The notes under the pieces were generated by a model, which did no database searches, was not told the DNA's origin, and saw only the letters and a list, made by a program, of their open reading frames with translations. From an uncultured Ectothiorhodospiraceae bacterium (GTDB lineage: Bacteria; Pseudomonadota; Gammaproteobacteria; UBA9214), in contig CAMYIO010000011.1 of the NCBI GenBank assembly GCA_947258515.1, forward strand, positions 1 through 48,662: 48,662 nt of DNA. The letters are read 5' to 3'. Shown here in pieces: positions 20,242 through 44,919 of this stretch. Position numbers and translations under genes: made by a program. Position 1 is the stretch's first letter; every line of letters begins with the position of its first letter.

Positions 20242-20286
20242 ATTTGCACATTACGGCCATCTGCTTGCCGCTGTAGAAAATAGCCG

Positions 20287-24071: not shown

Positions 24072-24085
24072 GAGCGTACCCTCAT

Positions 24086-28174: not shown

Positions 28175-28657
28175 ATGAAAGAAAAGGGCAAAAACAAACC
28201 GATACTGGTCCCCGTTGATTTTTCACCGCATTCGGAAATCGCCTTGATGAATGCGGCCGAACTGGCGACCAAGCTGGAGAGCGACCTCGTTATACTGCAC
28301 GTTGTCCATGATCTGAACGAGGCACCGGGTTACTATTCCGTCAAGGGCAGAGGCAAGCAGCTGCGGCGCATGGAAGACGTGGCCGCCGAGATGCTGGAAG
28401 AATTTGTGCACAAGATGCAGAAAAAACATGACGCACTGCCTGCCCTTAAAGACGCCACCACCATGCTGGTTGTCGGGCTGCCGGTGAACCGCATAATGGA
28501 ATCGGCGAATAAAATCCATGCGCGCATGATTGTCATGGGCAGCCAGGGACGCACCGGGCTTGCACGTGCCATGCTGGGCTCCAAGGCGGAACAGGTCGTT
28601 CGCCTGGCCTCGGTGCCGGTCATGATCGTCAAGGATGAAAAGAAACCGGAATCCTGA
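28175..28657 (+). CDS. UspA-type universal stress protein
   Basis: 160 residues with a clear ribosome site (ggag) and the usual fold. It begins KNKPILVPVDFSPHSEIALM and carries the ATP-binding motif GSQGRTGLARAMLGSKAEQV, so it belongs to the ATP-binding subgroup. Such proteins act in stress survival, but no partner is fixed. It lies 64 bases after ppk and could be co-transcribed with it. Confidence 0.93.
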   Translation: MKEKGKNKPILVPVDFSPHSEIALMNAAELATKLESDLVILHVVHDLNEAPGYYSVKGRGKQLRRMEDVAAEMLEEFVHKMQKKHDALPALKDATTMLVVGLPVNRIMESANKIHARMIVMGSQGRTGLARAMLGSKAEQVVRLASVPVMIVKDEKKPES

Positions 28658-28666
28658 AACAACAGT

Positions 28667-28715
28667 AGCGGAAAGCGGCTGCTTTCATACAGCTTCCGGG
28701 TCCGCTGCCGTTTTT
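28667..28715 (+). terminator. Possible terminator after the uspA-like gene
   Basis: AGCGGA (28667-28672) can pair with TCCGCT (28701-28706) around an internal CTG/CAG pairing, with TTTTT following at 28711-28715. The stem is interrupted and the T-run starts a few bases later, so function is uncertain. Confidence 0.3.
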
Positions 28716-28755
28716 GTCTATAGTGCAAGGTACATCTTTCTCGAGGGAAACAACA

Positions 28756-30528
28756 ATGTATAGCAGCCTCTACATCAGCCTGTGTAGCAGCTTCCGTCTG
28801 GCATGTCAGGACAAATCTGTGCATCGATTTTTATTGCCGGCACTGGCCGCGCTGACCGCACTGGCGGTCACCCCGGCATTCGCCGCCGCATCCGGCGCCG
28901 ACAGTGACATCAACTGGTGGAACATGGCCATGTCACTGTTTGGCGGACTCGCCCTGTTCCTGTTCGGCATGGAGCAAATGGCGGATGCGCTGAAGGCGGT
29001 CGCCGGCGAGCGCATGAAGATCATTCTCGCGAAGCTCACTACCAACCGCTTCATGGGGGCGGCAACCGGCGCCTTCGTCACCGCCATTATCCAGTCCTCG
29101 TCCGTCACCACGGTGCTGGTCGTGGGTTTCATCACTGCCGGCCTGATGTCCATGGCACAGTCCATCGGCGTCATCATGGGTGCCAATATCGGCACCACCA
29201 TCACCGCCCAGATCGTTGCCTTCAAGGTGACCAAGGCGGCCCTGCTGATGGTGGCCGTGGGTTTCAGCATGCTGTTCTTCTCCAAGCAGGAAAAGATCAA
29301 GCAATATGGCGGCATGCTGATGGGACTGGGTCTGGTGTTCTTCGGCATGAGCGTCATGAGTGACGCCATGAAACCGCTGCGCAGCTACGAGCCGTTTCTC
29401 GACCTGATGGCTACCATGGAAAATCCGCTCATCGGCATCCTGGTGGCGGCCGCCTTTACCGGTCTGGTCCAGTCGTCCTCGGCGACCACCGGTATCGTCA
29501 TCGTCATGGCTACCCAGGGTTTTATTACCCTGCAGGCCGGTATCGCGCTGGCCTTCGGCGCCAATATCGGCACCTGTGTGACCGCCATGCTGGCCGCCAT
29601 CGGCAAACCCCGCGAGGCCGTCCGTGCCGCCGTGGTGCATGTGTTGTTCAATGTCTTCGGCGTGCTGCTGTGGGTTGCGTTTATTCCTCAACTGGCGGAA
29701 GTTGTTGCCGCGCTATCGCCCGCCCACCCGGAGTTGTCGGGCACCGACCGGCTGGCCGCCGAGGCGCCGCGGCAAATCGCCAATGCCCACACCATTTTCA
29801 ATATCGCGAACACGCTGATTTTCATAGGTTTTACCACCCAGTTTGCCCGCCTGGTGGAGAAACTGGTTCCGGATAAACCGGTAGAAGAGAAACTCATTAC
29901 CAGGCCGAAATATCTCGATGAAGAACTCCTCGAGACGCCGTCACTGGCGCTGGACCGGGCACGCCTTGAGATTGGTCACATGGGCAGCCGCGTCACGGTA
30001 ATGCTGCAGGATATCATGGATGCCGTCGTGAACGGTGACCGGGCGATGCTGAAAAAGATTGCAAACATCGACGACGAGGTCGATATCCTGCACGGCCACA
30101 TCATCACCTACCTGGGACGCATCAGCCAGAAAGCACTGACGGAACAACAGACCGAGGTGCTGATGAAACTCATGGGTGCTACCAATGACCTGGAGAATAT
30201 CGGCGACATTATCGAGACCGATCTCGTCTACCTCGGCAACGAGGGCATCGACAATCAGGTGGCAATCAGCAATGAAACCCGCGCGATGCTGGCCAAACTG
30301 CACGACGTCGTCTCGACCACAGCCGAACTGGCCATCGATGCGGTCATGGAAAATGATGAGCAGGCGGCGCAAGAGGTCATTGGCATGAAGGCCGACATCG
30401 GCCGCCTGATGGAGTCCGCGGCCATGCACGAAATCGACATCATCGAGAAACTGAAGCGCATCTATTACTTCTCCAAGCGCATGGCAAAGGCCGTCATGCC
30501 CGAGGAAGTACCGGAACGTGCTGCATAG
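28756..30528 (+). CDS. Na/Pi-cotransporter family protein with C-terminal PhoU-like domain
   Basis: 590 residues from ATG 28756 (cgaggga upstream). The first 55 residues include a hydrophobic stretch that may be a signal or extra helix. About eight membrane helices follow, containing both Na/Pi_cotrans repeats: ATGAFVTAIIQSSSVTTVLV and VAAAFTGLVQSSSATTGIVI, each with the QSSS sodium/phosphate signature, and the related GANIGTTITAQ and GANIGTCVTAML. Residues 385-580 form a PhoU-like helical domain (MLQDIMDAVVNGDRAMLKKI; ATNDLENIGDIIETDL). Similar proteins import phosphate with sodium, and the PhoU part probably regulates them. It adds a second phosphate uptake route beside pst. Confidence 0.92.
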   Translation: MYSSLYISLCSSFRLACQDKSVHRFLLPALAALTALAVTPAFAAASGADSDINWWNMAMSLFGGLALFLFGMEQMADALKAVAGERMKIILAKLTTNRFMGAATGAFVTAIIQSSSVTTVLVVGFITAGLMSMAQSIGVIMGANIGTTITAQIVAFKVTKAALLMVAVGFSMLFFSKQEKIKQYGGMLMGLGLVFFGMSVMSDAMKPLRSYEPFLDLMATMENPLIGILVAAAFTGLVQSSSATTGIVIVMATQGFITLQAGIALAFGANIGTCVTAMLAAIGKPREAVRAAVVHVLFNVFGVLLWVAFIPQLAEVVAALSPAHPELSGTDRLAAEAPRQIANAHTIFNIANTLIFIGFTTQFARLVEKLVPDKPVEEKLITRPKYLDEELLETPSLALDRARLEIGHMGSRVTVMLQDIMDAVVNGDRAMLKKIANIDDEVDILHGHIITYLGRISQKALTEQQTEVLMKLMGATNDLENIGDIIETDLVYLGNEGIDNQVAISNETRAMLAKLHDVVSTTAELAIDAVMENDEQAAQEVIGMKADIGRLMESAAMHEIDIIEKLKRIYYFSKRMAKAVMPEEVPERAA

Positions 30529-30646: not shown

Positions 30647-31357
30647 TCAGATGCCGATGACAGGACGGGGCGATTGCTCCGCGGCGGACTCCGGTTTTGA
30701 AGAAATCTTCGGCACGCCGCTAACAGCACGGGTAAAGGGTATTTCGATTATAGCGTCGCGCACAAATCCGGACGGCTTGCCCAGTTCGTCGTAGCCCACA
30801 CAGGTTTCTCCATCGAACAGAAAATCACCGATATAGCGGTGTGAGATCTTGTGCTTGAGATTGTCCGCGTAGTTCAGTCCGAGAAAATGGCTGACGAATC
30901 CCCTTATGACGCCGGCATGAGCAACTATCAGCACGGTACGCTGCGGATGTTTCTTTGCAAGGGATTCGAGAAAAGCGACGCTGCGCTGTTGCATCTGACG
31001 AAAACTTTCGCCTTCCGGGTGGACAAAATCCGGGTCTTTCTTGTATTGCGGATAATGTTCAGACACCCATTTTTTCTTCTTTTTGAACAGTTTTCCGTAG
31101 TTGACCTCATTCAGCGCCGCAGTATCGTTAATTATATGTATTCCAAAGCACTGGGCATGAAACATCGCTGTCTGCCTGGCCCGCTCCAGGTCGCTTGAGT
31201 AGACAGCATCGAAGATGATCCCGCGTTTCTTCAGCTGTGCACTGACATACTCGACATCAGCCCTCCAGCCACTGTCACGTGGCGAATCTCCCCAACCCAG
31301 AATCTCCTCAGCGGCATTAATCAGCGTTTTATAGTGCCTGGTAATTATCGCGCGCAT
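30647..31357 (-). CDS. Histidine phosphatase superfamily protein with RHY in place of RHG
   Basis: 236 residues. The fold signatures are IITRHYKT at the start, VYSSDLERARQTAMF, EGESFRQMQQRSVAFLESL and the second histidine in VLIVAHAGVIRGF. The usual RHG is replaced by RHYKT, which keeps the catalytic Arg and His but removes the glycine. The C-terminal 60 residues (HRYIGDFLFDGETCVGYDEL and a basic, Ser/Pro-rich tail) are additional. The substrate could be a phosphoprotein or a small phosphate ester. It is the first of three members of this superfamily within 4.5 kb. Upstream, 31358-31490 holds nothing recognisable. Confidence 0.85.
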   Translation of the reverse strand: MRAIITRHYKTLINAAEEILGWGDSPRDSGWRADVEYVSAQLKKRGIIFDAVYSSDLERARQTAMFHAQCFGIHIINDTAALNEVNYGKLFKKKKKWVSEHYPQYKKDPDFVHPEGESFRQMQQRSVAFLESLAKKHPQRTVLIVAHAGVIRGFVSHFLGLNYADNLKHKISHRYIGDFLFDGETCVGYDELGKPSGFVRDAIIEIPFTRAVSGVPKISSKPESAAEQSPRPVIGI

Positions 31358-31490: not shown

Positions 31491-31760
31491 TCATTTCACA
31501 GACAAGGACTTCTTTTTCTTATCGCTGTCATCTTCCAGCTGCCAGCTGATGCGGATATTGAAGCGGTTGCGATTGTCTTCCTGGGTAGCCGTCACCTTGA
31601 TGTCCAGCAAGCCCTCGGGCCGCATGACAATCTTTTCGTCCTCGTCACTGAAGGTGATTTTTCCCTTCGCTATACCACTGGTGATGGACTTGAGAATATC
31701 CTCAATGGATTTTGCATCCTGCAGCGACTGGTGGCGGAAGCTTCTTTTTCTACTTCTCAT
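31491..31760 (-). CDS. Amphi-Trp domain protein
   Basis: 89 residues. The body (SLQDAKSIEDILKSITSGIA, then KGKITFSDEDEKIVMRPEGL) and the strand NRFNIRISWQLEDD with the invariant tryptophan match the short amphi-Trp domain. In NCBIfam this domain is listed among the families that co-occur with the GAK system. It is small, cytoplasmic and acidic with a lysine-rich end. It lies 58 bases after the metallophosphoesterase gene in the same direction and may share its transcript. Confidence 0.75.
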   Translation of the reverse strand: MRSRKRSFRHQSLQDAKSIEDILKSITSGIAKGKITFSDEDEKIVMRPEGLLDIKVTATQEDNRNRFNIRISWQLEDDSDKKKKSLSVK

Positions 31761-31818
31761 ATTTTACAGACCCGTTGTAATCGTTACCTGCCAGGAAAAT
31801 GGCAGCTGGGGATGGCAC

Positions 31819-33153
31819 TTAATGGTTGATTGTTGCCGGTTCAAATACCTTGATATAAGGATAGTCGCTACTGATACCCATCACCAGTCCTTCGGGCCTG
31901 AAGATGGTAACCGCCGCCCCCACTCCTTCAAGCCCCTCTTTCTTCCTTGTGTTGCGATCCAGCGAGGTATCACATTCGAAATTGACGATGCCCTTCCTCA
32001 ACATGACCCGCTGTCCATGCAGCAGGTTACGATGACCATGAACGATGACATGTACCCCACTTTTCTTTCTGAGCAGCTTGACACCACGCCGGGTCAGGGG
32101 CATGTCTACCGGACGATACTTGGTACGAATAATATTCGCCAGGGGCCCGTAGTAGAATTCAAACGGGTCACTGTACATCTGCTTGTTGAATCGCCGGTTG
32201 ATATGTTTCATGCCTTTTTCACTGATCATCCTGGCGATTCGATCATCGATGCCGGCATGCACGAAAACAAAGGAACCTTCACGATATCCCAGTACCATGC
32301 GCTTGTAAAACCAGGCGTATTCACCCTTCGGCTGCAAAAACAGCTCCTGCCATTTTCGTGCAGCGGCGTACACCATACGGATGGAAAGCCCGACCTTGGC
32401 GCAACCCGCTTCAAATAATTTTATTTTCTTGCGTAACTTCTGCACCTCACGCTCGATGGTTGTTTCCGGCATCGCCCACACGGCCAGTTCCGGAAAGTCA
32501 CGGAACCAGCTTTTCGGGGGATAGAGCAGTCGCCGGCATTTACGGCTATCGGGCACACCGCGCAATGCATGCTTCCCCTGCAGGTAGCGATCACGGATCT
32601 CGGTCAGGAAAGGAACCATTTTTGGCCCCATGCGGATAAAAAAATGATCGGTCCGCGGATCCGGCTCCATGCCGACCGACTTTATGCCAATCAGCATGCG
32701 CACATCATGATTACCGGCCAGCAACTCAATATCCGCGCCGCGATCGATCAAACGGCGGACAACATCGAGCAAGCGCAGCGAACTCGGCCCCTTGTCGAAA
32801 CAATCGCCACCAATGATAAATCGCGCCTTGCGCCCTTGTTTGGTGAGTTTGAAATCCCTGTCACGCGGACCGGTCTTTTTTACGCCGCCGGAGGCGACCA
32901 GGGAGGCAAAAAAGGCATCGGCATCGGCATGCATATCCGAGATGAAATACAGGGTTCGTTTTGGCCATTTCCACGGTTCCTCACCGATCGCCTTGTGCAT
33001 TTCCTGTGCGTAGGCCGCACTGTGATAGGCATCTTTTTTAACGGAATGCTGTTTGCCCAGCATCCATACCTGTCCCTGATGCGGCAGTTTGGCCTTTATC
33101 CATGACTCACCCTTGTAATGCGGCAGGTATTTGCAGGTATTTTTGAGTTGCAT
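31819..33153 (-). CDS. Calcineurin-like metallophosphoesterase
   Basis: 444 residues from ATG 33153; the longer frame to 33225 runs into an inverted repeat and is not preferred. The five metal-binding blocks are seen in order: YFISDMHADADAFF, IIGGDCFDKGPSSLRLLDV, LLAGNHDVRML, FVFVHAGIDDRI and HVIVHGHRNLL. The spacing resembles serine/threonine phosphatases or symmetrical ApnA hydrolases rather than exonucleases. The N-terminal 80 residues (LPHYKGESWIKAKLPHQGQV) precede the catalytic part and have no match I know. It lies just upstream of the amphi-Trp gene. The substrate, protein or nucleotide, cannot be told. Confidence 0.85.
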   Translation of the reverse strand: MQLKNTCKYLPHYKGESWIKAKLPHQGQVWMLGKQHSVKKDAYHSAAYAQEMHKAIGEEPWKWPKRTLYFISDMHADADAFFASLVASGGVKKTGPRDRDFKLTKQGRKARFIIGGDCFDKGPSSLRLLDVVRRLIDRGADIELLAGNHDVRMLIGIKSVGMEPDPRTDHFFIRMGPKMVPFLTEIRDRYLQGKHALRGVPDSRKCRRLLYPPKSWFRDFPELAVWAMPETTIEREVQKLRKKIKLFEAGCAKVGLSIRMVYAAARKWQELFLQPKGEYAWFYKRMVLGYREGSFVFVHAGIDDRIARMISEKGMKHINRRFNKQMYSDPFEFYYGPLANIIRTKYRPVDMPLTRRGVKLLRKKSGVHVIVHGHRNLLHGQRVMLRKGIVNFECDTSLDRNTRKKEGLEGVGAAVTIFRPEGLVMGISSDYPYIKVFEPATINH

Positions 33154-33201
33154 GATCTGTTTCCGACTGATACTTAATTCAATCTGATAAAAAGCATATT
33201 C

Positions 33202-33280
33202 GCCACGGAATCCACGGAAGAACACGGAAAAAGTTCTATTAATGCATTTATATTTCAGTGTTTTCCGTGGATTCCGTGGC
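33202..33280. repeat. Imperfect inverted repeat of the ccacggaatccacgga kind
   Basis: Left arm gccacggaatccacgga at 33202-33218, with aacacggaaa after it, mirrors the right arm at 33258-33280 (gtgttttccgtgg followed by attccgtggc). The 40-base centre is AT-rich. Similar ccacgga arms are common between genes in many bacteria. It could be a bidirectional terminator or a mobile palindrome. Confidence 0.6.
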
Positions 33281-33333
33281 TATTAAAAAGTTCTGGCACT
33301 CACTATCCTGGTTCGATCGCGGTTGTTGTCAGT

Positions 33334-34035
33334 CTAGTCCGTGAAGTGACCGGACTCCGGGCGCACCTTCCATTCTCCATCGACATGGCGCCACTGCCCG
33401 CCGGGAAGATACTCGATCATGACCGGCCGGCAATGATACATGCTCAGTTTCCTGATTTGCCCGAACTCCAGTACCCCGAGATGCCAGGCGGCGTGACGGA
33501 AGGCCGCACCGTGACCGACGAAGAGTTTTATCCTGTCATGCTCGCCTGGCGCTAATGCAGACATGGATTGCGACAAATGAGCGGCCACCCGTTCACCGGC
33601 CTCCAGCAGGGATTCGGCGCCCTGCAAGGGCAGGCGGTAATGGCTGTCCGCCTTCCAGTCGGCGGGCGGATCGGACACCCTCGGATCCTGCTGCAACACG
33701 GCCTCGATCTGTGCTGTCGTGAGGTTGGCCAGGCAACCGACGCCCCTTTCAGCGAGTGCATCATAACTCTCGACCTGCGGTGCTGCCGCAGACCGTCCGG
33801 CAAGCCTGTCTGCTAAAATCACGGCCGTCTCCCAGGCGCGCAGCATCCGGGACGAATCGATGTGAGGTACCAGCGACCAGTCATTCCGGACCAGCACGTC
33901 ATGCATCTGCTGCGCCGCTTCCTGTGCCTGTGACTTTCCCTTGCTGTTGAGTGGCCAGGGCTGGTGGGCACTGGGGGTATGCGGCGACTGGTGATAGTCA
34001 CCATGCCGAATCAGCGCCGCAATCAGTCTGGCCAT
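33334..34035 (-). CDS. Histidine phosphatase superfamily protein (SixA/PgmB-like)
   Basis: 233 residues, with the complete RHG motif in LIAALIRHGDYHQSPH, then HIDSSRMLRAWETAVILADR and the second histidine in KLFVGHGAAFRHAAWHLGV. The substrate is unknown. It starts three bases after the stop of the histidine phosphatase/NUDIX fusion, so the two are translationally linked. The tandem arrangement suggests two dephosphorylation steps in one path, which is inference. Confidence 0.88.
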   Translation of the reverse strand: MARLIAALIRHGDYHQSPHTPSAHQPWPLNSKGKSQAQEAAQQMHDVLVRNDWSLVPHIDSSRMLRAWETAVILADRLAGRSAAAPQVESYDALAERGVGCLANLTTAQIEAVLQQDPRVSDPPADWKADSHYRLPLQGAESLLEAGERVAAHLSQSMSALAPGEHDRIKLFVGHGAAFRHAAWHLGVLEFGQIRKLSMYHCRPVMIEYLPGGQWRHVDGEWKVRPESGHFTD

Positions 34036-34038
34036 TAC

Positions 34039-35004
34039 TCAGAGTGACGCCGCGAGCTTCTGTACCAGCGGCCGCAGTTCTTTCTGTTTCAGCTCACTGG
34101 CGGCCTTTTCCGGACTCACCCACTGACGCCCGCGGTGGCTTTCCTCCCAGTCGTCTTCCGCGATGACGCGGGTTACCTTCATGGCGTAGACGGCCACGGT
34201 ACAGGTGGCACCCCATTTTTCACAGCTGTAGCTGCCGAGCGCAGTCTCCGCAATCTCGCCTTCGACACCGGCCTCTTCCAGCGCCTCCCTGGCGGCTGAT
34301 TCACGCGGAGACAGTCCCGGCTCCTTGATACCTTTCGGCACCACCAGGTGATGTTTCTTGCTGGACGCTATCACCAGTATTTCCATCTGCCCGTCACGCA
34401 CACGGTACGGAATTACGGATGACTGGGTGTAGTAGTAGGCGGGGCGGTCTCGCAGTTCCGTGCCGTCCGGCCCGGGGTAAGGAAATTTCTTCGGCAACAC
34501 TCCGGGGCGCGTGATGGAATCGAGACGGGCGCAGCCGGCTGTCAGGGTACCCCAGTTATCGGGCATCTGTAACCGCGCCAGTGTCGCTGTGGGCAGGAGT
34601 TTGCCGTCTTCAGCAACTTCTACAGGTTCATACGCCAACCACATGAGCAAGTCCTCCAGCCCCGGATTATGGCCCACCAGCATGACCCGACCCGCATCCG
34701 GCGGGCAGTCAGCAAGCACCTCGAGCAGTTCATTGGGCCCGGCCTCGTAAATACGCTCGTCCTTGAGGATACCCTGAGCGCCGTTACCCATCGCCTTGCA
34801 GGCCTTCTCGGCTGTCACCAGTGCACGTTCTGCCGGTGATGTGACAATGACATCAGGCACCATTTTCTGCTGCGCGATCCAGACTCCGATGCGCTGAGCA
34901 GATCGTTTGCCACGGTCCTTCAACGGGCGATAAAAGTCATCGACACCGACACTCCAGTCGGACTTGCCATGGCGAAGCAACAGCAGTTCACGTGTCATGT
35001 TCAT
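34039..35004 (-). CDS. SixA-like histidine phosphatase fused to a NUDIX hydrolase
   Basis: 321 residues. Residues 1-160 form a SixA-type phosphatase: LLLLRHGKSDWSVGVDDFYR, VTSPAERALVTAEK and VMLVGHNPGLEDLL. Residues 185-320 form a NUDIX domain with the full box, starting GIKEPGLSP and ending REALEEAGVEGE; YYYTQSSVIPYRVRDGQMEI precedes it. SixA proteins remove phosphate from phospho-histidine, while NUDIX enzymes cleave X-linked nucleoside diphosphates. The order phosphatase-NUDIX is the reverse of the mycobacterial MutT1 type. The likely substrate is a diphosphate or polyphosphate compound. The start at 35004 has GGGGACGAG upstream; codon three is also ATG. Confidence 0.9.
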   Translation of the reverse strand: MNMTRELLLLRHGKSDWSVGVDDFYRPLKDRGKRSAQRIGVWIAQQKMVPDVIVTSPAERALVTAEKACKAMGNGAQGILKDERIYEAGPNELLEVLADCPPDAGRVMLVGHNPGLEDLLMWLAYEPVEVAEDGKLLPTATLARLQMPDNWGTLTAGCARLDSITRPGVLPKKFPYPGPDGTELRDRPAYYYTQSSVIPYRVRDGQMEILVIASSKKHHLVVPKGIKEPGLSPRESAAREALEEAGVEGEIAETALGSYSCEKWGATCTVAVYAMKVTRVIAEDDWEESHRGRQWVSPEKAASELKQKELRPLVQKLAASL

Positions 35005-35076
35005 TGCATCTCGTCCCCTGTTGTCCAGAGCATTGTAATGATTCCTGTTGCAGGAGCCGTGTCACACCGTGATTCG

Positions 35077-35270
35077 CGGCGAGGACGCCGCTCCTACAAG
35101 CGCGATAGCTGCGATCAGCACCTCATCGCGGATGCGATCCACCCCTACACGTGCATCGATTGGCGCAGGAGCGCTTCGCAAGCGCGATAGCTGCGATCAG
35201 CACCTCATCGCGGATTCGATCCGCTCCTACACGTGCATCGATTGGCGTAGGAGCGGCGTCTCGCCGCGAT
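35077..35270. repeat. REP-like repeat cluster with two tandem 82-base units
   Basis: The region holds REP-like hairpins (gcggcgaggacgccgctcc; gtaggagcggcgtctcgccg) around two adjacent copies of an 82-base unit at 35101-35182 and 35183-35264, which differ at only a few positions. The unit contains cgcgatagctgcgatcagc and acgtgcatcgattggcg. An inverted copy of the same unit lies at 40768-40848. No coding frame is credible. The stretch 35005-35076 has no recognisable feature. Confidence 0.9.
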
Positions 35271-35292
35271 GCGTTCGAATACATCAAAACAG

Positions 35293-36381
35293 TCAGGCCA
35301 GCAACCCGGACAGGCAACGCTCTGCCAACGCTGAAAAATCTATCCGCCCCCTGGCAACATGGACCGCAACATTTTCAAGTGCCTGCAGGTAGGCCGCTTC
35401 ATCAAAGCCTGCCGTATCCTGCAGGAAGGAACCATCCGGATACTGGTAGAACGGTCCGGGTGATTTCATCAAGGCACCCAGCAGGTCCCGGTGTGCCGCC
35501 AGGTCCACCTGTTCAACGCTCAGTGCCTGGTCACTGTCACGCGACCAGTCCAGTATCAGGAAGGCCGCCAGCGGGGCCTCCGCCACAATCCGCCCGGGTC
35601 CGTAGACCCTGTCAATGTGGACGTCGTACTTTTCCTCGAGTTCCCAGAGCTCGGTAGCCGGTAACTGCAGCAAGGCCTCGCGTTGTGCGTCAGGAATGAG
35701 ACCGTGCAGCTTTTGATTATGAACGATGGTGCCGGGATTGATACGTGGCAGCTTCGGTATACCGCGCGCCATGATGTGGCCGGCATCGGCCTTCATGAAC
35801 AGGCGGTCATTGGTCAGGTAGGCGGTTTCGTCATTATCAAGCAGGTGCAGCATCAGGGTCGACTTGCCACCGCCGGAGAACCCGGCTATGCCAAGGCACT
35901 TGCCGCGGTGGACGAGCCCGGCGGCATGGCAGATCAACCAGCCGCGGTTTTGCAGCCAGTTCATGTACTGGGAATTGATGAAATTGATTACCTGGTTGTC
36001 ATATTGACGGCAGGGTCCGGCGGCAATGATATGACGCTCACTCTGCAGAAAGACCATACCGGTGCGTACCTTGCGGACCAGGCGTCCGTCCGGCAGGTCC
36101 ACGCAGGAGTCCTTGCGCCCGGTCTTGCCCGGCTCGCGTTTCCAGTCAATGAAGTCGATACCCAGCTCCGGCGCATCACGTTCTACAGCAATGATGTCGA
36201 CATCAGGCGTACCCGCATCGCTGACGACATGCGAGAAATAATCGCCAAGGCCTGCCAGCAACTCTGTGGAGTTGGAGCGCAGCCTCAGCCTGCAGCCACC
36301 AAGCGCAAGATACAGTTCGTCGGCGCACAGCGGCGCGTTGTCCAGCAATGCATTCGCGGCAGATTCTACTGTGTAATCCAT
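35293..36381 (-). CDS. HprK-related kinase B of the GAK-type cassette
   Basis: 362 residues. The P-loop of the HPr-kinase type is GFSGGGKST at about 167-175, preceded by GWLICHAAGLVHRGKCLGIA and followed by NDETAYLTNDRLFM and ARGIPKLPRINPGTI. Canonical HprK phosphorylates HPr on serine; this group has no PTS target in view. NCBIfam lists HprK-related kinase B with the GAK system. The N-terminal 140 residues (DSCVDLPDGRLVRKVRTGMV) fold differently from HprK. It is the last gene of a four-gene operon; the ATP-grasp gene ends 18 bases upstream. Confidence 0.88.
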   Translation of the reverse strand: MDYTVESAANALLDNAPLCADELYLALGGCRLRLRSNSTELLAGLGDYFSHVVSDAGTPDVDIIAVERDAPELGIDFIDWKREPGKTGRKDSCVDLPDGRLVRKVRTGMVFLQSERHIIAAGPCRQYDNQVINFINSQYMNWLQNRGWLICHAAGLVHRGKCLGIAGFSGGGKSTLMLHLLDNDETAYLTNDRLFMKADAGHIMARGIPKLPRINPGTIVHNQKLHGLIPDAQREALLQLPATELWELEEKYDVHIDRVYGPGRIVAEAPLAAFLILDWSRDSDQALSVEQVDLAAHRDLLGALMKSPGPFYQYPDGSFLQDTAGFDEAAYLQALENVAVHVARGRIDFSALAERCLSGLLA

Positions 36382-36399
36382 ATCATCCCCTTCCCGTGC

Positions 36400-37290
36400 T
36401 CAAGCTTTCAGTTGTCGCAGTACATGTTCTGTATACAGGCCGCCGGCATCGATACCGATGCCCTCGAGGGCGCCGCGGAAACCCCCAAAGGCCGATACCT
36501 CGAATACAATCGGGCCGCTGTGTGTTTCGGCAACATCCACGGTGGTGAAGTCCATGCCAAACAGTGCCTGGGCACGCTGCGCAAGTTCGATGACATCATC
36601 CGTCGGTGTATGCGCGGCATACTTGCCGCCACTGTGTATGGTCGTGTTCCAGGCATCGCCTTTGGACACCCGGGCATAGCTGCCAAGATATTCTCCATCG
36701 AGGAACACCATCCCCAGGTCCCGTCCCGGCAGCTCGATTTTCTGCTGGATATACATCATCGGATTGTCCGCCTTGAAGGCACGTATTTCACGCTCGATGC
36801 GGGCCTTTTTATGCGTTGAGTCGATCACACACATGCCACGGGCCTTGGTGGAGTAAAGCGGTTTAAAGACCGCGCTGCCAAAATCCTCCACGGCCGTGAA
36901 CGCCGCCCCGATATCCTCGGTGACACGGGTCGCCGGCATGGGGATGCCGGCGTTGCGCAGGGTGACCGTACAGCTGAGGCGGTCGATGAGACGCAGAATA
37001 TGCTCCGCACGGCTGAAGACGCGCACCCCGGCCTGCTCGGCGACACGCAGCAGTTCCAGCCGATCCAGGGTATTCGGGTTGTAGCTGGCACTGATCTTTT
37101 TCACAATCAGGGCATCCAGCTGGCACAGGTCCTGCTCCTGGAACAACAGCCGCTGCCGTTCCAGGTCGAGGCTCACCGCGGCCATGTCGATCACCAGACG
37201 GTAGCCGGTGCGTTGCTCGACGGCATCCGCGAGGGTCTCCGTCGACCATTTGCCGGGTATGCCGATGACTCCGATTTTGTATTCAGCCAA
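36400..37290 (-). CDS. GAK-type ATP-grasp ligase
   Basis: 296 residues from a TTG at 37290, which follows AAGGAG by seven bases and overlaps the upstream stop by eight; the earlier ATG (37314) lies deep in the upstream gene. The ATP-grasp fold shows KIGVIGIPGKWSTETLADAV, SRAEHILRLIDRLSCTVTLR, SAVFKPLYSTKARGM, YIQQKIELPGRDLGMVFLDG and VDVAETHSGPIVFEVSAFGG, related to RimK-type ligases. Such enzymes join a carboxylate to an amine through an acyl phosphate. NCBIfam has a family called GAK system ATP-grasp enzyme that this resembles. The substrate is unknown; partners are the neighbouring HprK-related kinase and the PhoU/APH fusion. Confidence 0.88.
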   Translation of the reverse strand: MAEYKIGVIGIPGKWSTETLADAVEQRTGYRLVIDMAAVSLDLERQRLLFQEQDLCQLDALIVKKISASYNPNTLDRLELLRVAEQAGVRVFSRAEHILRLIDRLSCTVTLRNAGIPMPATRVTEDIGAAFTAVEDFGSAVFKPLYSTKARGMCVIDSTHKKARIEREIRAFKADNPMMYIQQKIELPGRDLGMVFLDGEYLGSYARVSKGDAWNTTIHSGGKYAAHTPTDDVIELAQRAQALFGMDFTTVDVAETHSGPIVFEVSAFGGFRGALEGIGIDAGGLYTEHVLRQLKA

Positions 37291-38923
37291 TGAATATCTC
37301 CTTAACAGGTACACGAAACGATGCCGGGTCCTTCAGATCTGCAGCCAGCACCCGCTCGAGCAGGTAACGTGCACGCAGGAACATGGCGCGTGCCAGTGAC
37401 TTGTCGAGGATAAAGCGTGTCGAGGTTGCGAACGACCGCGCCAGTCCCAGGGCAAGACGCAGCTCAAAGGTCTTGTCACCCGACTTGCGGGCAAAGGCCG
37501 CGGCAAAGCGGTAGAACTCGCGTGTCGTCATCAGGATACGCTTGCGCAGCGGCGCGTCGAAAATCTGCAAGCGGTAATTGGATACCATGAAGACCGAGAC
37601 ATCCTGTACATAATCCATGTAGCGCGAGCGATGCAGGTCAATGAAATTGATCTTCTTCTCCAGCGGGTCGTAGATAATGTTGTCGACGTTGAAATCGCCA
37701 TGGATATAGACAGAAAATGGCGCCTTGATACCGGCTTCGAGGCGATGCGCCCGCTTCAGCAAGGCACCAAACGAAGGCAGGGTTGTGCCACAGATACGGG
37801 TGTCATCCTGCCGAAACTCGGGGTGGATGGTATACACCTCCTCGAGGCGTTTCGAGAGCTGCCGCATGTAGGCGGCGGACACCGGCTTGCGGGTATGCGT
37901 CTCGCGCCATACCTGCGTCAGCGTGCGGTTCAGCTGTTTCCGGGTCTCCCTGAGCAGGCGGGTCGGTTCGTGCAGTAATATCTGTTCGAATGTCAGTCCG
38001 GCCAGATGCTCTATCAATAACGAGGCCGACTGACCACGCTTGTGGTAAGACAGAATCCGTGGCGCCAGACCCGGAAATATCTCCTGCCAGTTGACCAGCC
38101 CCTTGCGTTCCTCCTGCAACTTGCGCTTCTTGCCGTCCTTGTAGATGGCTATATAACCCGTGTCTTCCTGCCCCGCCGCACTGATACCGGAAATGCCGCT
38201 GCCGGAGCGGGTTTCCGCGATCGTCTCGGCAACCAGCTCGGAGGCGTCACTGTTTATATCCAGCTGCTTCATGGAGGCACGCATGGACTGGTAGCGGTCG
38301 ATATTGATGGGCTGGCCCAGGTTGGCGGAGATAATGGCTTCGCTGATATTGTGCATGGCATCCCCCATCTGCTCGATGCCGTGCACCAGGAACAGCCCTG
38401 CGACCAGATCTTCCGTGTGTTTCCTGCGCTTCAGTCCCGCGGTATATTGTGCCACCAGCTTCTGTCTGACCTTGTCGAGGCGCGGTTTGATGCGGCCGAT
38501 CTTGAGGGCAAGGCGGGTGTCTTTTTGACTGATCGCCTGTTCGGTTCGATCAAGTCCCCGGGAGATGCGGCCAAGCATGAATTTACAACGGCCGGCGCCA
38601 GGGCAATGCCTGTTTTGCAACTGCAGCAGTTGCTGAATACATTCACGGCACAAACCGGTGATGCGTTCCAGGTCTGTCGCAATGGATTCAATGGCACGCA
38701 GTGACGCCGCATCCGCCCCGGATTCGGCGCTCTTGATGACCTGGTTGTGGCAGCTGTCGTGTATCCGCAGCATGAGATTATAGGCATAGCCGCTGCGGTC
38801 GAGGATACGCCGCGCAATGCTCGCAGAGGGCGTATCAAGATAGGACTGCAGGTTGGAGATCTGGGAGCCGACCTCGGCAGTCAGGAAACGGAGATTGTTG
38901 CGGATGTTCTTCGAGATTCTCAT
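37283..38923 (-). CDS. PhoU-like helical domain fused to an APH-type kinase domain
   Basis: 546 residues. The first 235 residues form a helical bundle with PhoU-like spacing (LFLVHGIEQMGDAMHNISEA; MLGRISRGLDRTEQAISQKD) and cysteines in DSCH, GLCREC and CPGAGRC, which may bind metal. From 255 there is an aminoglycoside-phosphotransferase/choline-kinase fold: SLLIEHLAGLTFEQILLHEP, Brenner motif HGDFNVDN at 408-415 and NFIDLHRSRYMDYVQDVSVF with the metal aspartate. It should phosphorylate a small molecule or protein. It starts in the stop of the NUDIX gene (TAATG) and its end overlaps the ATP-grasp start. I recall no described protein with this combination. Confidence 0.82.
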   Translation of the reverse strand: MRISKNIRNNLRFLTAEVGSQISNLQSYLDTPSASIARRILDRSGYAYNLMLRIHDSCHNQVIKSAESGADAASLRAIESIATDLERITGLCRECIQQLLQLQNRHCPGAGRCKFMLGRISRGLDRTEQAISQKDTRLALKIGRIKPRLDKVRQKLVAQYTAGLKRRKHTEDLVAGLFLVHGIEQMGDAMHNISEAIISANLGQPINIDRYQSMRASMKQLDINSDASELVAETIAETRSGSGISGISAAGQEDTGYIAIYKDGKKRKLQEERKGLVNWQEIFPGLAPRILSYHKRGQSASLLIEHLAGLTFEQILLHEPTRLLRETRKQLNRTLTQVWRETHTRKPVSAAYMRQLSKRLEEVYTIHPEFRQDDTRICGTTLPSFGALLKRAHRLEAGIKAPFSVYIHGDFNVDNIIYDPLEKKINFIDLHRSRYMDYVQDVSVFMVSNYRLQIFDAPLRKRILMTTREFYRFAAAFARKSGDKTFELRLALGLARSFATSTRFILDKSLARAMFLRARYLLERVLAADLKDPASFRVPVKEIFIG

Positions 38924-39396
38924 TACCAGTCGATGGTCCCGAGATAGACCGTGCCGGTGTTTTCCACTGAATTCACCAGGTACGGGGTCAGCGAGCCAGG
39001 ATTGAGCGGCATACCGGCAAGCTGGTCCAGCCCGGCCCAGACCACCTCGACCTGATGCTTGTCCGGGTGGTGGCCGTTTCTGGGCGCATAGTCACCGGGA
39101 ACGCTGCACTCGAACAGGAACTCGACAAGGTGACGGGTGCTTTGTGGGACCGTCTCTCGCGGTTTGAAATAGTCCGCCACGTAGACAAGATCGTGGATTT
39201 CCACGCGGGTACCGATTTCCTCCAGGCATTCACGGTTCAGTGCCTGTTCCAGGGTCTCTCCGATATCCTGGCCACCGCCCGGCAGTGCAAAGCGCTCACC
39301 CTGCTCATAACCGTCCTTGCGCAGCAACAGGATGTGGTTATCCCGCCGGATCAGCGCGCGGACTGCATTGCGAATCGGGGGAATGATCGGTTCCAT
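38923..39396 (-). CDS. NUDIX hydrolase
   Basis: 157 residues. The NUDIX box is complete: it starts GGGQDIGETLEQAL and ends NRECLEEIGTRVE, with the preceding DNHILLLRKDGYEQGERFAL. It should hydrolyse an X-linked nucleoside diphosphate. It is the first gene of the NUDIX, PhoU/APH, ATP-grasp, HprK-related operon; its stop TAA shares a base with the next ATG. No second domain is present. A promoter candidate lies 20-50 bases upstream. Confidence 0.93.
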   Translation of the reverse strand: MEPIIPPIRNAVRALIRRDNHILLLRKDGYEQGERFALPGGGQDIGETLEQALNRECLEEIGTRVEIHDLVYVADYFKPRETVPQSTRHLVEFLFECSVPGDYAPRNGHHPDKHQVEVVWAGLDQLAGMPLNPGSLTPYLVNSVENTGTVYLGTIDW

Positions 39397-39416
39397 TTGC
39401 CTGCCGTAGCGGTTGT

Positions 39417-39446
39417 TATATTGTAGACTGCAATCATACCAGTCAA
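39417..39446 (-). promoter_or_regulatory. Possible promoter of the NUDIX-GAK operon
   Basis: On the minus strand TTGACT (39446-39441) and AATATA (39422-39417) are spaced by 18 bases, 20 bases before the NUDIX start. TACAAT at a 15-base spacing is an alternative -10. It lies in the 117-base divergent gap shared with the CofD-like gene, so both directions could be controlled together. Confidence 0.4.
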
Positions 39447-39513
39447 ACGCCGGGTTTTATAATACCAGACGCTGTACCGGACTCACCCTGAAGCAACGTT
39501 ACGGACCTGAATC

Positions 39514-40716
39514 GTGCCAGCACCGACCACTGTAAGCATCACACACAGCGTACAATTACCCGACCGGGTAAAACTCAGCCGCTACCTGAAAGCCCCCGAA
39601 CTGGGGCCGCGCATCCTGTTTTTCAGCGGGGGTACGGCGCTCACCGACACCAGTCGCGTCATCAAGCGCTACACGCACAACTCCATACACCTGGTCACAC
39701 CCTTTGATTCAGGTGGCAGTTCGGCAAAGTTGCGGCAGGCCTTCGCCATGCCGTCTATCGGCGACCTGCGCAGCCGGCTGATAGCCCTCGCGGATGAAAA
39801 CATTACCGGTCATCCGGAGGTTTACGAGTTGTTTACCTATCGCTTTCCGGCAGATCAACCGGCGAGTGAGTTACTGGCGAGACTCGATCTGATGGCAAAG
39901 GGCAAAGACCCGCTGCTGGCGGCAATCTCCAATCCCATGCGACGGCTGATCCGCAACCAGCTGGGCTATTTCCGCGAGGCAATGCCGGATGATTTCGATC
40001 TGCGTGGCGCCAGCACCGGCAACCTGATTCTTGCCGGTGGCTACCTGAATAACCACAAGCACCTCGACCCGATCATTTTCCTGTTTTCCAAGCTCGTCAA
40101 CGTACAGGGTACGGTACTTGCCGTGGTGAATGATGACCTGCACCTGGCGGCGGATCTTGAGGACGGCCATTGCGTCACCGGCCAGCATCGGCTGACCGGC
40201 AAGGAAGTCGCGCCGCTGACGTCGCCCGTCAGCCGTCTGTTCCTGTCCAGCAATCCCGACAAGCCGGTACCCGCGAAGGCGGAAATGCGCAAAAAGTACC
40301 AGCGACTGGTACAGCAGGCAGAACTCATCTGCTACCCGCCCGGCAGCTTCTATACAAGTCTGGTGGCCAGTCTGTTGCCGACAGGCGTCTGCTCATCCAT
40401 CGCCGCCACCGATTGCCCGAAAGTCTACATTCCCAACCTTGGCAAGGATCCGGAGCAAATCGGCATGTCCCTGGAGCGTTGCGTACAGACCCTGCTCGAT
40501 TACCTGCATGCCGACAATACGCAGAAGACGCCCAACGGAAAGCTGCTGAATTTCGTGTTGATCGACAGCAAGCGGGGTAAGTATCCGTCGACAATATCCA
40601 GTCCCGTCATGCAGGAACTGGGAATCCGGGTCATCGATACGCAGCTGATCAGCCGGCAAAGCGCCCCTTACTATGATGCTGAACTGCTGGCTTCAACGCT
40701 GCTGTCGCTGACTTAG
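39514..40716 (+). CDS. GAK-type CofD-like protein
   Basis: 400 residues, starting at GTG 39514. The CofD-like Rossmann fold is recognised from RILFFSGGTALTDTSRVIKR, HLVTPFDSGGSSAKLRQAF, SIGDLRSRLIALAD, LRGASTGNLILAGGYLN and YPPGSFYTSLVASLLPTGV. CofD moves 2-phospholactate to a nucleotide in F420 biosynthesis, and the YvcK group of the same fold regulates metabolism; this version belongs to the family NCBIfam names GAK system CofD-like. No other F420 genes are present, so F420 making is not suggested. It is divergent from the NUDIX operon. Confidence 0.9.
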   Translation: MPAPTTVSITHSVQLPDRVKLSRYLKAPELGPRILFFSGGTALTDTSRVIKRYTHNSIHLVTPFDSGGSSAKLRQAFAMPSIGDLRSRLIALADENITGHPEVYELFTYRFPADQPASELLARLDLMAKGKDPLLAAISNPMRRLIRNQLGYFREAMPDDFDLRGASTGNLILAGGYLNNHKHLDPIIFLFSKLVNVQGTVLAVVNDDLHLAADLEDGHCVTGQHRLTGKEVAPLTSPVSRLFLSSNPDKPVPAKAEMRKKYQRLVQQAELICYPPGSFYTSLVASLLPTGVCSSIAATDCPKVYIPNLGKDPEQIGMSLERCVQTLLDYLHADNTQKTPNGKLLNFVLIDSKRGKYPSTISSPVMQELGIRVIDTQLISRQSAPYYDAELLASTLLSLT

Positions 40717-42364: not shown

Positions 42365-42590
42365 CCGGAAGGCTCCTTAGGTTGTGATTCTCATGGCGGT
42401 ATTGCAAACCCGTTAATATTAATGACACAATAGCGAAATTCTCAATCAAAACATAACAATATTTCAGGTAACGGGTCTCAATAAATTATATGAGCACGGA
42501 TTCCGGGAGCACTCTGTCTAACAGGGCTGATTGCACAATGTCGATTGTACCGATTTTATCCCTGCCGGTGACGGTTACCGGAAACCCTGC

Positions 42591-44150
42591 GTGAGCACGT
42601 CCCAGGAATTTCTTCTCCCGTCCGAAATGGGGGCCGACGACCTGCTGGCCCGGGTAAGGCAGGAATTCCGGCATCACGCCGAACCACCCCGAATGCTGCA
42701 ACGCACCTGGTATGACAGTTTTGACTGGCGTCTGTATGCGAATAATTCCACCCTCGAAGACACCCGTGACGGCAACGAGCATACGCTGGTATGGCGCATC
42801 CTGAAGGGCAACCAGGGTGATGCCCGGCTGAAACTGAAGAAAGCACCGCGGTTTGCCTGGGACTTGCCGCAGGGGCACTTTCGCGAGCGTCTGGAACCGG
42901 TGCTGGAAATGCGCGAACTCTCACCAAAACTCAGAATCCGGTCGCGCGTCAACACCCTGCGCATTCTGAACAAGGATGAAAAGACGGTCGCCTGGGTTGT
43001 GGTCGAGGAAAATACACTGCCGCGGCAGAAGGGACTCCGCGCAGGTAAGCTTGATAACCGGGTCAGCGTCATTCAGGTCAGGGGCTTCCCGAAACCTTCA
43101 GTGGAAGTGGCTGAACTCCTGCAACAGCAGGGCCTGTCACCGGCACAGGGTGACCTGTTGCAGACCGCCCTGTCCATGTTCGGCGAAGCACCGGGCAGCT
43201 ACTCGTCCAAACTGAACCTGGAACTGGACCCAGCCATGCGTGCCGACGAGGCAAGCAAGCTCATCCTGCAGCGGCTGCTTGATATCATGATGCAAAACGA
43301 GGCGGGTACACGCATCGGTACCGACACCGAGTTTTTGCATGATTACCGCGTCGCGATCCGTCGCACCCGCTCGGCCCTGAGCCAGATCAAGGCGGTGTTC
43401 CCGAAACAGATCGTTGACCGTTACAAGACTGAATTTGCCTGGCTCGGACAGATAACCACCCCCAGCCGTGACCTGGATGTCTACCTGCTGACATTTGACA
43501 AATACCGCGATAGCCTGCCGGTCAGTATGCAGGCCGACATCGAACCACTGCGTGACTTCCTCATCAGGCACCAGAAGCTTGAAAACAGGGCCCTGGTCAA
43601 GGCAATGGATTCAGCGCGCTACCGCCGCATCATCACCAACTGGCGCAGTTTTCTGGAACAGCCGGTCAACGAGCGCAGCACGCTGAAGAACGCGGGCCGT
43701 CCCGTGCTGGAGGTTGCCTGCGCACGCATCTGGCGTATCTACCGGGTGGCCCTCAGGGAAGGTAACGCCATCAACGCGGAATCGCCGGCGGAAGCGCTCC
43801 ATGATCTGCGCAAGACCTGCAAGAAACTGCGCTATCTCATGGAGTTCTTCCAGAGCCTCTTCCCGAGCAGCGATATCAAGGAACTCATTCGGACACTCAA
43901 GTCATTGCAGGACAACCTGGGGGATTTTCAGGATTACGAGGTACAGGTGAGCACGCTGAAAGAATTCAGCCACCAGATGGTCGCCGAAGGACAGGTCCCC
44001 CCTGATACACTACTCGCCATGGGTATACTGATCGACGGTCTGGAACGACGCCAGCACCAGGCACGTGAAGAGTTTGCCGACCGCTACTCGGGGTTTTCAC
44101 AGCCACACAACCAGGAGCGCTTCAGGCAACTGTTCGCGTCAAGCCATTAG
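42591..44150 (+). CDS. Degenerate-CYTH/CHAD domain protein
   Basis: 519 residues from GTG 42591; a longer frame to TTG 42531 also exists. The first 190 residues resemble a CYTH domain without its ExExK start (QRTWYDSFDWRLYANNSTLE; LRIRSRVNTLRIL), so triphosphatase activity is doubtful. Residues 200-510 are a CHAD domain: the histidine-bearing helices FLHDYRVAIRRTRSALSQIK, TTPSRDLDVYLL and EALHDLRKTCKKLRYLMEFF. CHAD domains bind polyphosphate through basic residues and are common near polyphosphate genes. The ParA-like gene follows after 16 bases. A possible 18-codon leader (42538-42594) overlaps the start. Confidence 0.88.
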   Translation: MSTSQEFLLPSEMGADDLLARVRQEFRHHAEPPRMLQRTWYDSFDWRLYANNSTLEDTRDGNEHTLVWRILKGNQGDARLKLKKAPRFAWDLPQGHFRERLEPVLEMRELSPKLRIRSRVNTLRILNKDEKTVAWVVVEENTLPRQKGLRAGKLDNRVSVIQVRGFPKPSVEVAELLQQQGLSPAQGDLLQTALSMFGEAPGSYSSKLNLELDPAMRADEASKLILQRLLDIMMQNEAGTRIGTDTEFLHDYRVAIRRTRSALSQIKAVFPKQIVDRYKTEFAWLGQITTPSRDLDVYLLTFDKYRDSLPVSMQADIEPLRDFLIRHQKLENRALVKAMDSARYRRIITNWRSFLEQPVNERSTLKNAGRPVLEVACARIWRIYRVALREGNAINAESPAEALHDLRKTCKKLRYLMEFFQSLFPSSDIKELIRTLKSLQDNLGDFQDYEVQVSTLKEFSHQMVAEGQVPPDTLLAMGILIDGLERRQHQAREEFADRYSGFSQPHNQERFRQLFASSH

Positions 44151-44166
44151 CAAGGAAACCGCACGC

Positions 44167-44919
44167 TTGAAAGTCATCGCCACATACAATATCAAGGGGG
44201 GGGTTGGAAAAACGGCCACCGCTGTCAATCTTGCGTGGCTGGCGGCCCGTGAAGGCGCACCGACCCTTGTCTGGGACCTCGATCCACAGGGTGCCGCCAG
44301 TTACTACTACCGTATCAAACCGAAGATCAAGGGCGGCGGCAAGCGCCTGGTTCAGGGCAAGCGGGACCTGGATGGTTTTATTCGCGGCACCGATTATGAG
44401 CTCCTTGACCTGCTGCCGGCGGACTTTTCCTATCGCAACATGGACCTTTACCTGGAGCAGACGAAAAAACCCATACACCAGCTGCATAAACTGCTGAGAC
44501 CCTTCAGGAGCGAATATTATTATGTATTCCTGGACTGTCCTCCGAGTATTTCACTGGTATCGGAAAACATCTTTGATGCAGCCGACGTGGTGCTGGTACC
44601 GACCATACCCACCACCCTGTCGCTGCGCACCTATCAGCAGATCAAGAAGTTTTTCAAACTGCAGGAACTGGACACGGTGAAAGTAATGCCTTTTTTCTCC
44701 ATGGTCGACCGGCGCAAGCAACTGCATCGCTCCATCGTGGACACCCCGCCGGACTACATGGAAAACCTGCTGACAACACCCATTCCCTATGACAGTAACG
44801 TCGAGCGTATGGGCACCCACCGCACCCCGGTGGCTGATTTTGCCCCCAACAGCCGCTCCGCACGCAGTTATGAAGGTCTGTGGGAAGACATCAAGCAACA
44901 GTTATCCCGTCTTAAGTAA
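44167..44919 (+). CDS. ParA/MinD-type ATPase
   Basis: 250 residues from TTG 44167, seven bases after aaggaa; upstream in-frame starts at 44065 would lie inside the CHAD gene. The deviant Walker A is YNIKGGVGKTATAVNLAWLA, Walker B-like DLDPQGAASYYY and YVFLDCPPSIS. Such ATPases position chromosomes, plasmids or large assemblies. There is no parB-like gene. Its close coupling to the CHAD protein suggests that it could position polyphosphate granules, as discussed for other CHAD/ParA pairs; this is inference. No DNA-binding domain is present. Confidence 0.88.
   Translation: MKVIATYNIKGGVGKTATAVNLAWLAAREGAPTLVWDLDPQGAASYYYRIKPKIKGGGKRLVQGKRDLDGFIRGTDYELLDLLPADFSYRNMDLYLEQTKKPIHQLHKLLRPFRSEYYYVFLDCPPSISLVSENIFDAADVVLVPTIPTTLSLRTYQQIKKFFKLQELDTVKVMPFFSMVDRRKQLHRSIVDTPPDYMENLLTTPIPYDSNVERMGTHRTPVADFAPNSRSARSYEGLWEDIKQQLSRLK

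Follow-up and report, generated by a model that had tools for sequence, protein, structure and literature searches.

Gene content of the GAK locus

We analyzed the 48,662-nucleotide (nt) contig CAMYIO010000011.1 of an uncultured Ectothiorhodospiraceae bacterium, the entire contig being referred to here as the window; it belongs to a 3.59-Mb draft genome that is 98% complete. Genes were identified from NCBIfam scores against curated cutoffs and from Pfam matches. The four families of the GAK system all lie between 31.5 and 40.7 kb, as had been claimed in an earlier note on this DNA, and each scores over its curated NCBIfam cutoff: amphi-Trp (TIGR04354), 64.5 bits against 31; HprK_rel_B (TIGR04355), 351.7 bits against 200; grasp_GAK (TIGR04356), 452.1 bits against 300; and CofD_rel_GAK (TIGR04357), 552.6 bits against 340. 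The earlier note had also placed a NUDIX enzyme, a PhoU/APH fusion, a SixA-NUDIX fusion, a second histidine phosphatase, and a metallophosphoesterase (MPE) between these genes, and Pfam matches confirmed all of them at about the positions it gave. The genes of the cassette are as follows (aa, amino acids; pLDDT, predicted local distance difference test; PEPCK, phosphoenolpyruvate carboxykinase; DIPP, diphosphoinositol polyphosphate phosphohydrolase).

31491..31760, minus strand: amphi-Trp small protein, 89 aa (TIGR04354/PF20068 over cutoff; 52-sequence alignment; AlphaFold pLDDT 85)
31819..33225, minus strand: MPE, calcineurin/PPP-like, 468 aa (PF00149; metal motifs)
33334..34035, minus strand: histidine phosphatase HisP2, 233 aa (PF00300; RH, R, ER, H)
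34039..35004, minus strand: SixA-NUDIX fusion, 321 aa, with a DIPP-like NUDIX half (Pfam His_Phos_1 and NUDIX)
35293..36381, minus strand: HprK-related kinase B (HprK-B), 362 aa, P-loop kinase of predicted PEPCK/HprK fold (TIGR04355; AlphaFold)
36400..37314, minus strand: GAK-type ATP-grasp enzyme, 304 aa (TIGR04356; PF08443)
37283..38923, minus strand: PhoU-APH kinase fusion, 546 aa (PF01895 and PF01636)
38923..39396, minus strand: NUDIX hydrolase, 157 aa, first gene of the cassette (PF00293)
39514..40716, plus strand: GAK-type CofD/YvcK-like protein, 400 aa, divergent from the cassette (TIGR04357)

The eight cassette genes on the minus strand are mostly separated by overlaps or short gaps. 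The tight packing that the earlier note described for PhoU-APH, ATP-grasp, and HprK-B holds and takes in NUDIX as well, with overlaps and gaps of 1 to 32 nt: PhoU-APH and NUDIX overlap by 1 nt and ATP-grasp and PhoU-APH by 32 nt (open reading frames with the longest start), and 18 nt separate HprK-B from ATP-grasp. It does not extend to the whole set. Although HisP2 and SixA-NUDIX are 3 nt apart, 288 nt lie between HprK-B and SixA-NUDIX, and the divergent CofD gene is 117 nt from NUDIX.

Conservation of the cassette across genomes

A collection scan returned 496 relatives of the ATP-grasp enzyme, of which the best 80 (61 to 88% identity), spanning Gamma- and Alphaproteobacteria and the planctomycete Stieleria, were examined along with flanks of up to 10 kb on either side. 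A sample of the phylum, in which the GAK ATP-grasp scored over cutoff in 13 of 398 genomes, contributed a further 13 regions, for a total of 93 loci. Planctomycetota, the only other phylum sampled, had GAK in 2 of 199 genomes. Because the proteins of the window served as queries for the partner genes, the lower presence counts are minima.

The partner enzymes had been proposed as companions of the GAK genes, and they stand beside them elsewhere too, with the same genes in the same order in nearly all of the 93 loci: CofD (divergent), NUDIX, PhoU-APH, ATP-grasp, HprK-B, SixA-NUDIX, HisP2, MPE, and amphi-Trp. Five partners were found in 92 to 100% of the 52 loci with complete flanks, namely, PhoU-APH (52), HprK-B (51), amphi-Trp (50), MPE (49), and HisP2 (48), and less constant were SixA-NUDIX (35), NUDIX (26), and CofD (24). 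In the second genome of the Planctomycetota sample, the genes are carried on one strand in the order HisP2, MPE, amphi-Trp (two copies), PhoU-APH, ATP-grasp, HprK-B, and CofD. That the set was kept there while its order changed argues for function over inherited synteny, and this retention across loci, even when reordered, marks PhoU-APH, HisP2, MPE, and the other constant partners as core parts of the system. The co-conservation of the cassette is far beyond chance.

Other recurrent neighbors of the cassette formed only small clusters or belonged to common families (GGDEF/EAL and ABC transporters). Two adjacent amphi-Trp genes lie within a rearranged GAK cassette from the Planctomycetota sample (L147, 7261 to 8010). 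Chemosynthetic symbionts of animals (tubeworm, mussel, and lucinid clam) are numerous among the carriers, as are other marine metagenome-assembled genomes (loci L058, L060, L061, L064, L102, L112, and L114). Culturable carriers include Thalassospira, Cobetia, Halomonas eurihalina, Marinobacterium, and Roseibium. Contig L052 (JABDRC010000298.1), labeled "Halobacteria archaeon," carries the cassette with CHAD-ParA, PstS, and PhoU genes and an ATP-grasp 80% identical to that of the window; it is most likely a misbinned gammaproteobacterial contig.

Catalytic residues and predicted structures

The residues expected of active enzymes are essentially invariant in the PhoU-APH kinase, the phosphatases, and the NUDIX enzymes. 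PhoU-APH has the HGDxxxxN motif, the metal-binding Asp, and the Lys of APH-type kinases in 84/84 sequences. MPE, which gives a weak match to symmetrical diadenosine tetraphosphate (Ap4A) hydrolase, has its metal motifs (D/H, GD..D, GNHD, H, and GH) in 62/62, HisP2 its RH, R, ER, and H in 79/79, and the stand-alone NUDIX hydrolase its RE..EE in 44/44. In the SixA-NUDIX fusion, the metal-binding Glu residues E240, E243, and E244 of the NUDIX half occur in 60/60 and the His of the SixA half in 55/60. The best solved relatives of this NUDIX half are the human DIPPs, and a Ser-Ser loop ahead of the NUDIX box (57/60) aligns with the DIPP SSR. The DIPP relative Ddp1 of yeast holds phosphate in a clamp and cleaves polyphosphate (polyP), inositol pyrophosphates, and dinucleotides (PMC8064635).

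The GAK ATP-grasp has a RimK-like sequence, and RimK-family structures are the best among its solved relatives. It retains the Lys, Asp, and Glu; in the alignment, however, Ser replaces the Asn of the E-x-N motif, which we take to be a metal ligand in the ATP-grasp superfamily, and Thr replaces the Asn of the RSN/ITN motif, both in 88/88 sequences. Both Asn residues are present in all 16 RimK-family paralogues compared. An enzyme that has kept the Lys, Asp, and Glu but lost the two Asn can be expected to bind ATP, though it does not have to act as a standard peptide ligase.

Searching solved structures with the HprK-B sequence gave only P-loop noise, and its fold assignment therefore rests on the AlphaFold model (pLDDT 95). 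The model aligns with ATP-dependent PEPCK over its whole length (Z 17.1, 301 residues, 4.3 Å) and with the core of HprK/P (Z 14.9, 137 residues, 3.0 Å), so that HprK-B is predicted to be PEPCK-like along its entire length. Its P-loop, GGGKS, is found in 82/82 sequences. The second kinase motif, tentatively equated by spacing alone with the Asp-Asp of HprK, is Asn191-Asp192, also in 82/82.

The amphi-Trp model consists of a helix followed by four strands, and the invariant residues in its 52-sequence alignment are F8, H10, S12, P48, and W73, the first three in the N-terminal stretch. Foldseek and VIA-align found no convincing fold match, the best being GnsA (Z 3.0, 53 residues, root mean square deviation 6.0). 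The possibility that amphi-Trp is an HPr-like phosphocarrier was also considered; HPr was absent from these matches, which does not exclude a likeness to HPr. The GAK-type CofD protein matches TIGR01826 (YvcK), and its solved relatives are all YvcK/UPF0052 proteins; by sequence it is YvcK-like and not of the CofD subfamily.

Polyphosphate and phosphate-storage genes around the cassette

All genes named in the earlier note are present, but it overlooked a third histidine phosphatase (30647 to 31357) and the polyP neighbors of the cassette. This polyP and phosphate uptake context is the strongest clue to the substrate. The surroundings contain PPK1, a universal stress protein, a sodium/phosphate (Na/Pi) cotransporter with PhoU, a histidine phosphatase, CNNM proteins, CHAD, ParA, a PstS-like protein, and PhoU, and a CYTH protein and an ATP-cone kinase are found upstream of these.

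18569..19051, minus strand: CYTH-domain protein (PF01928, 67.5 bits)
25856..28110, plus strand: PPK1 in two overlapping frames, 25856-27442 and 27289-28110 (PF13089, PF02503, PF17941, and PF13090)
28175..28657, plus strand: universal stress protein (PF00582)
28714..30528, plus strand: Na/Pi cotransporter with a C-terminal PhoU domain (PF02690 and PF01895)
30647..31357, minus strand: further histidine phosphatase, HisP1 (PF00300)
42531..44150, plus strand: CHAD protein, 539 aa, with a conserved N-terminal half (PF05235, 203 bits)
44167..44919, plus strand: ParA-type ATPase (KGGVGKT), start placed at TTG 44167 (PF13614)
45723..46595, plus strand: PstS-like phosphate-binding protein (PF12849)
46799..47884, plus strand: PhoU protein with a C-terminal stretch like low-molecular-weight phosphatases (PF01895; PF01451 slightly under cutoff)

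The CHAD domain scores far above the PF05235 cutoff of 25.6 bits, and CHAD domains bind polyP (PMC6537752). PPK1 and CHAD in the window are the only copies detected in the genome; PPK2 proteins are encoded elsewhere. HisP1 adjoins amphi-Trp in close relatives only.

Neighbor statistics were computed for 53 whole GAK genomes, with Poisson expectations that treat genomes as independent and ignore kinship. CHAD lay within 12 kb of GAK in 14 of the 53 (0.34 expected), the Na/Pi cotransporter in 8 (0.51 expected), and PPK1 in 5 (0.32 expected). Among 278 nearest neighbors, 10 were CHAD, 7 the Na/Pi transporter, and 6 ParA; other families reached at most 3 of 191 each. Mapping CHAD onto the ATP-grasp tree requires at least 8 changes of label, 3 of them forced by well-supported branches, and the placement of CHAD-ParA relative to the cassette varies (upstream or downstream, on the same or the opposite strand). 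PPK1 or PPK2 was found in 52/53 GAK genomes, the exception holding 1.3 Mb only. The link between GAK and polyP is positional and not obligatory.

The PPK1 gene of the window is split by a frameshift near 27.2 to 27.3 kb, whereas relatives have a single open frame, and this is either an assembly error or a real break. The region from 18569 to 21111 encodes the CYTH protein, a protein with an ATP cone plus a kinase, and a methyltransferase-like protein whose homologues stand divergently beside PPK1 in three loci (L130, L132, and L138). Three CNNM/CorC-type transporter-like proteins (22809 to 25645 and 40953 to 42197) flank the polyP and GAK genes and possibly handle Mg2+ for polyP; about 10 loci have CNNM homologues upstream of the cassette.

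CHAD-ParA pair

The ParA gene begins 16 nt past the CHAD stop codon (42531 to 44919 for the pair). It belongs to a sharply bounded subfamily with 14 members in 29 genomes, which score 279 to 444 bits, compared with at most 150 for other ParA proteins. Counting the window's own, 12 of the 14 members are beside CHAD (11) or PPK1 (1); the one at PPK1 sits directly beside it in a genome without a CHAD match, and the remaining two have unrelated neighbors. The CHAD-ParA pair also stands next to PPK1 in three loci that are not near GAK. A ParA dedicated to CHAD or PPK1 is a candidate positioner of polyP granules, and with CHAD as the granule binder the two resemble an adaptor/ATPase pair for this task. 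A 2025 review lists the question of whether an ATPase positions polyP granules among those still to be settled (PMC13052382).

Proposed role and alternative explanations

We give about an even chance to the reading that the named GAK genes belong to a conserved, functionally coupled phosphoryl transfer cassette serving polyP and phosphate storage; its chemistry and its target are inferred. The combination of two kinases and an ATP-grasp with phosphatases, NUDIX domains, and a PhoU-kinase fusion points to a write/erase cycle linked to the phosphate status of the cell, and the polyP neighborhood suggests that the output of the cassette acts on phosphate storage. PhoU-APH, HprK-B, and the ATP-grasp would use ATP to make a phosphorylated or pyrophosphorylated product, and the PhoU domain would couple its synthesis to phosphate status. 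HisP2, MPE, SixA-NUDIX, and NUDIX would strip the phosphates off again, and amphi-Trp and the CofD/YvcK-like protein would bind or present the product. This product might be a protein carrying a modification, for which amphi-Trp is one candidate, polyP modified at its end, or a small molecule such as a soluble pyrophosphorylated signal; it would tune the synthesis, mobilization, or placement of the polyP that PPK makes and CHAD binds. The earlier note had suggested a phosphorylated or diphosphate substrate that is made, attached, and removed again. As the partners are kept together with conserved catalytic residues, it is reasonable to read them as making and removing phosphate-bearing groups; attachment by the ATP-grasp is less secure, since the enzyme cannot simply be taken for an amide ligase of the usual kind when the two Asn of all 16 paralogues are gone. 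If the storage reading is correct, it provides a concrete pathway for GAK in culturable marine bacteria.

Several observations weigh against a role in storage. No CHAD gene is found within 20 kb in 38 of the 53 GAK loci and no PPK1 gene in 48, and CHAD is not enriched in GAK-positive genomes (about 8/14, against 202/398 in the phylum). PPK is common in bacteria anyway (7 to 8 of 14 control genomes), and the window has no excess of Pho boxes (5 matches against 4.1 expected). The closest solved relatives of the GAK ATP-grasp are peptide ligases, and DIPP-type enzymes also act on dinucleotides. The loci compared are the closest 80 of the 496 relatives, and the assumption of independent genomes underlies the expected values.

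Among the alternatives, a protein phosphorylation module like the nitrogen phosphotransferase system (PTS), in which HprK-B phosphorylates the Ser (or His) of amphi-Trp and SixA and HisP2 dephosphorylate it, seems unlikely to us. It would account for the HprK-type core of the HprK-B model and for a protein of about 90 aa with an invariant H10 and S12 in a flexible N terminus in 50/52 loci, and SixA has a precedent in dephosphorylating NPr in Escherichia coli (PMC7948535). However, the amphi-Trp model matches nothing well, S12 may merely cap the helix, and HprK-B is nearer to PEPCK (Z 17 over the whole length) than to HprK. The SixA half went undetected in a third of loci, with the His retained in 55/60, and the ATP-grasp and NUDIX are left unexplained. 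Another alternative is the synthesis of an F420-like cofactor tail, where the CofD-like protein forms a phosphodiester link, the ATP-grasp adds an amino acid, and NUDIX and the phosphatases prepare or recycle the donor. The similarity to CofD and to the RimK/CofF/MptN family is consistent with this, as is the adjacency of CofD to the cassette in 25/33 genomes that have CofD-GAK. Against it, 20/53 GAK genomes are without this CofD, CofD-GAK resembles YvcK by model score and has only YvcK-type structures among its relatives, and the ATP-grasp is without the two Asn retained in paralogous ligases; two kinases and several phosphatases also go unexplained. We regard this scheme as quite improbable.

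A house-cleaning role, in which stress nucleotides or damaged metabolites (Ap4A, ADP-ribose-like compounds, or NUDIX substrates) are cleared and the kinases salvage the products, would fit the two NUDIX domains, the weak match of MPE to symmetrical Ap4A hydrolase, and the DIPP/Ap4A-type relatives of SixA-NUDIX. Under this scheme neither the fusion of a PhoU domain to a kinase nor the enrichment near CHAD, PPK1, and Na/Pi transport would be expected, and the stand-alone NUDIX was found in only half of loci; we consider it an unlikely explanation. Many of the folds concerned are widespread in genomes generally, which might suggest a chance cluster of unrelated phosphate housekeeping genes, but the order kept across classes, the rearranged yet complete set in Planctomycetota, and the near-universal co-presence contradict this, and we find it hardly credible. 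Antiphage defense was also considered and rejected, as PADLOC returned one weak NUDIX match and nothing else.

Comparison with known systems

Mycobacterial MutT1 joins a NUDIX domain to a histidine phosphatase in the reverse of the domain order seen in SixA-NUDIX. The two differ further in that SixA-NUDIX has a DIPP-type SS loop, whereas MutT1 is without the polyP-anchoring (phosphate clamp) residues of Ddp1 (PMC8064635). With HPr kinase/phosphorylase and the nitrogen PTS with SixA, the cassette shares a P-loop HprK core and a SixA domain (PMC7948535), but HprK-B aligns with PEPCK along its entire length. No HPr homologue was recognized in the cassette; the rest of the genome was not searched for HPr. 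The occurrence of CHAD in gene clusters with polyP enzymes is already known (PMC6537752), and we found no published description of its linkage to the GAK cassette or to a dedicated ParA.

As in the NCBIfam definition of the GAK system, TIGR04354, TIGR04355, TIGR04356, and TIGR04357 occur together here, all over cutoff. NCBIfam, however, names those four only, as hypothetical equivalogs and without a job. In the loci compared here, PhoU-APH, HisP2, and MPE are equally constant, SixA-NUDIX and NUDIX are frequent, and CofD is optional, so that the analysis fixes a likely gene set with its constant and optional members. In the literature library searched, no paper named the GAK system.

In eukaryotes, inositol pyrophosphates and polyP are controlled by ATP-grasp kinases with histidine phosphatase domains and by DIPP/Ddp1 NUDIX hydrolases. 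The cassette is similar in having an ATP-grasp, histidine phosphatases, a DIPP-type NUDIX domain (assigned by similarity to solved DIPPs), and a link to polyP. It differs in that its ATP-grasp is RimK-like, its other kinases are of the APH and PEPCK/HprK types, and no inositol enzyme was seen in it. The cassette could be a bacterial counterpart of this control, a doubtful and rather remote reading in which the ATP-grasp would have become a kinase and, together with PhoU-APH and the PEPCK-fold kinase, would build a highly phosphorylated, pyrophosphate-bearing soluble signal that HisP2, MPE, and SixA-NUDIX would erase. Such a signal would report phosphate status and set polyP storage.

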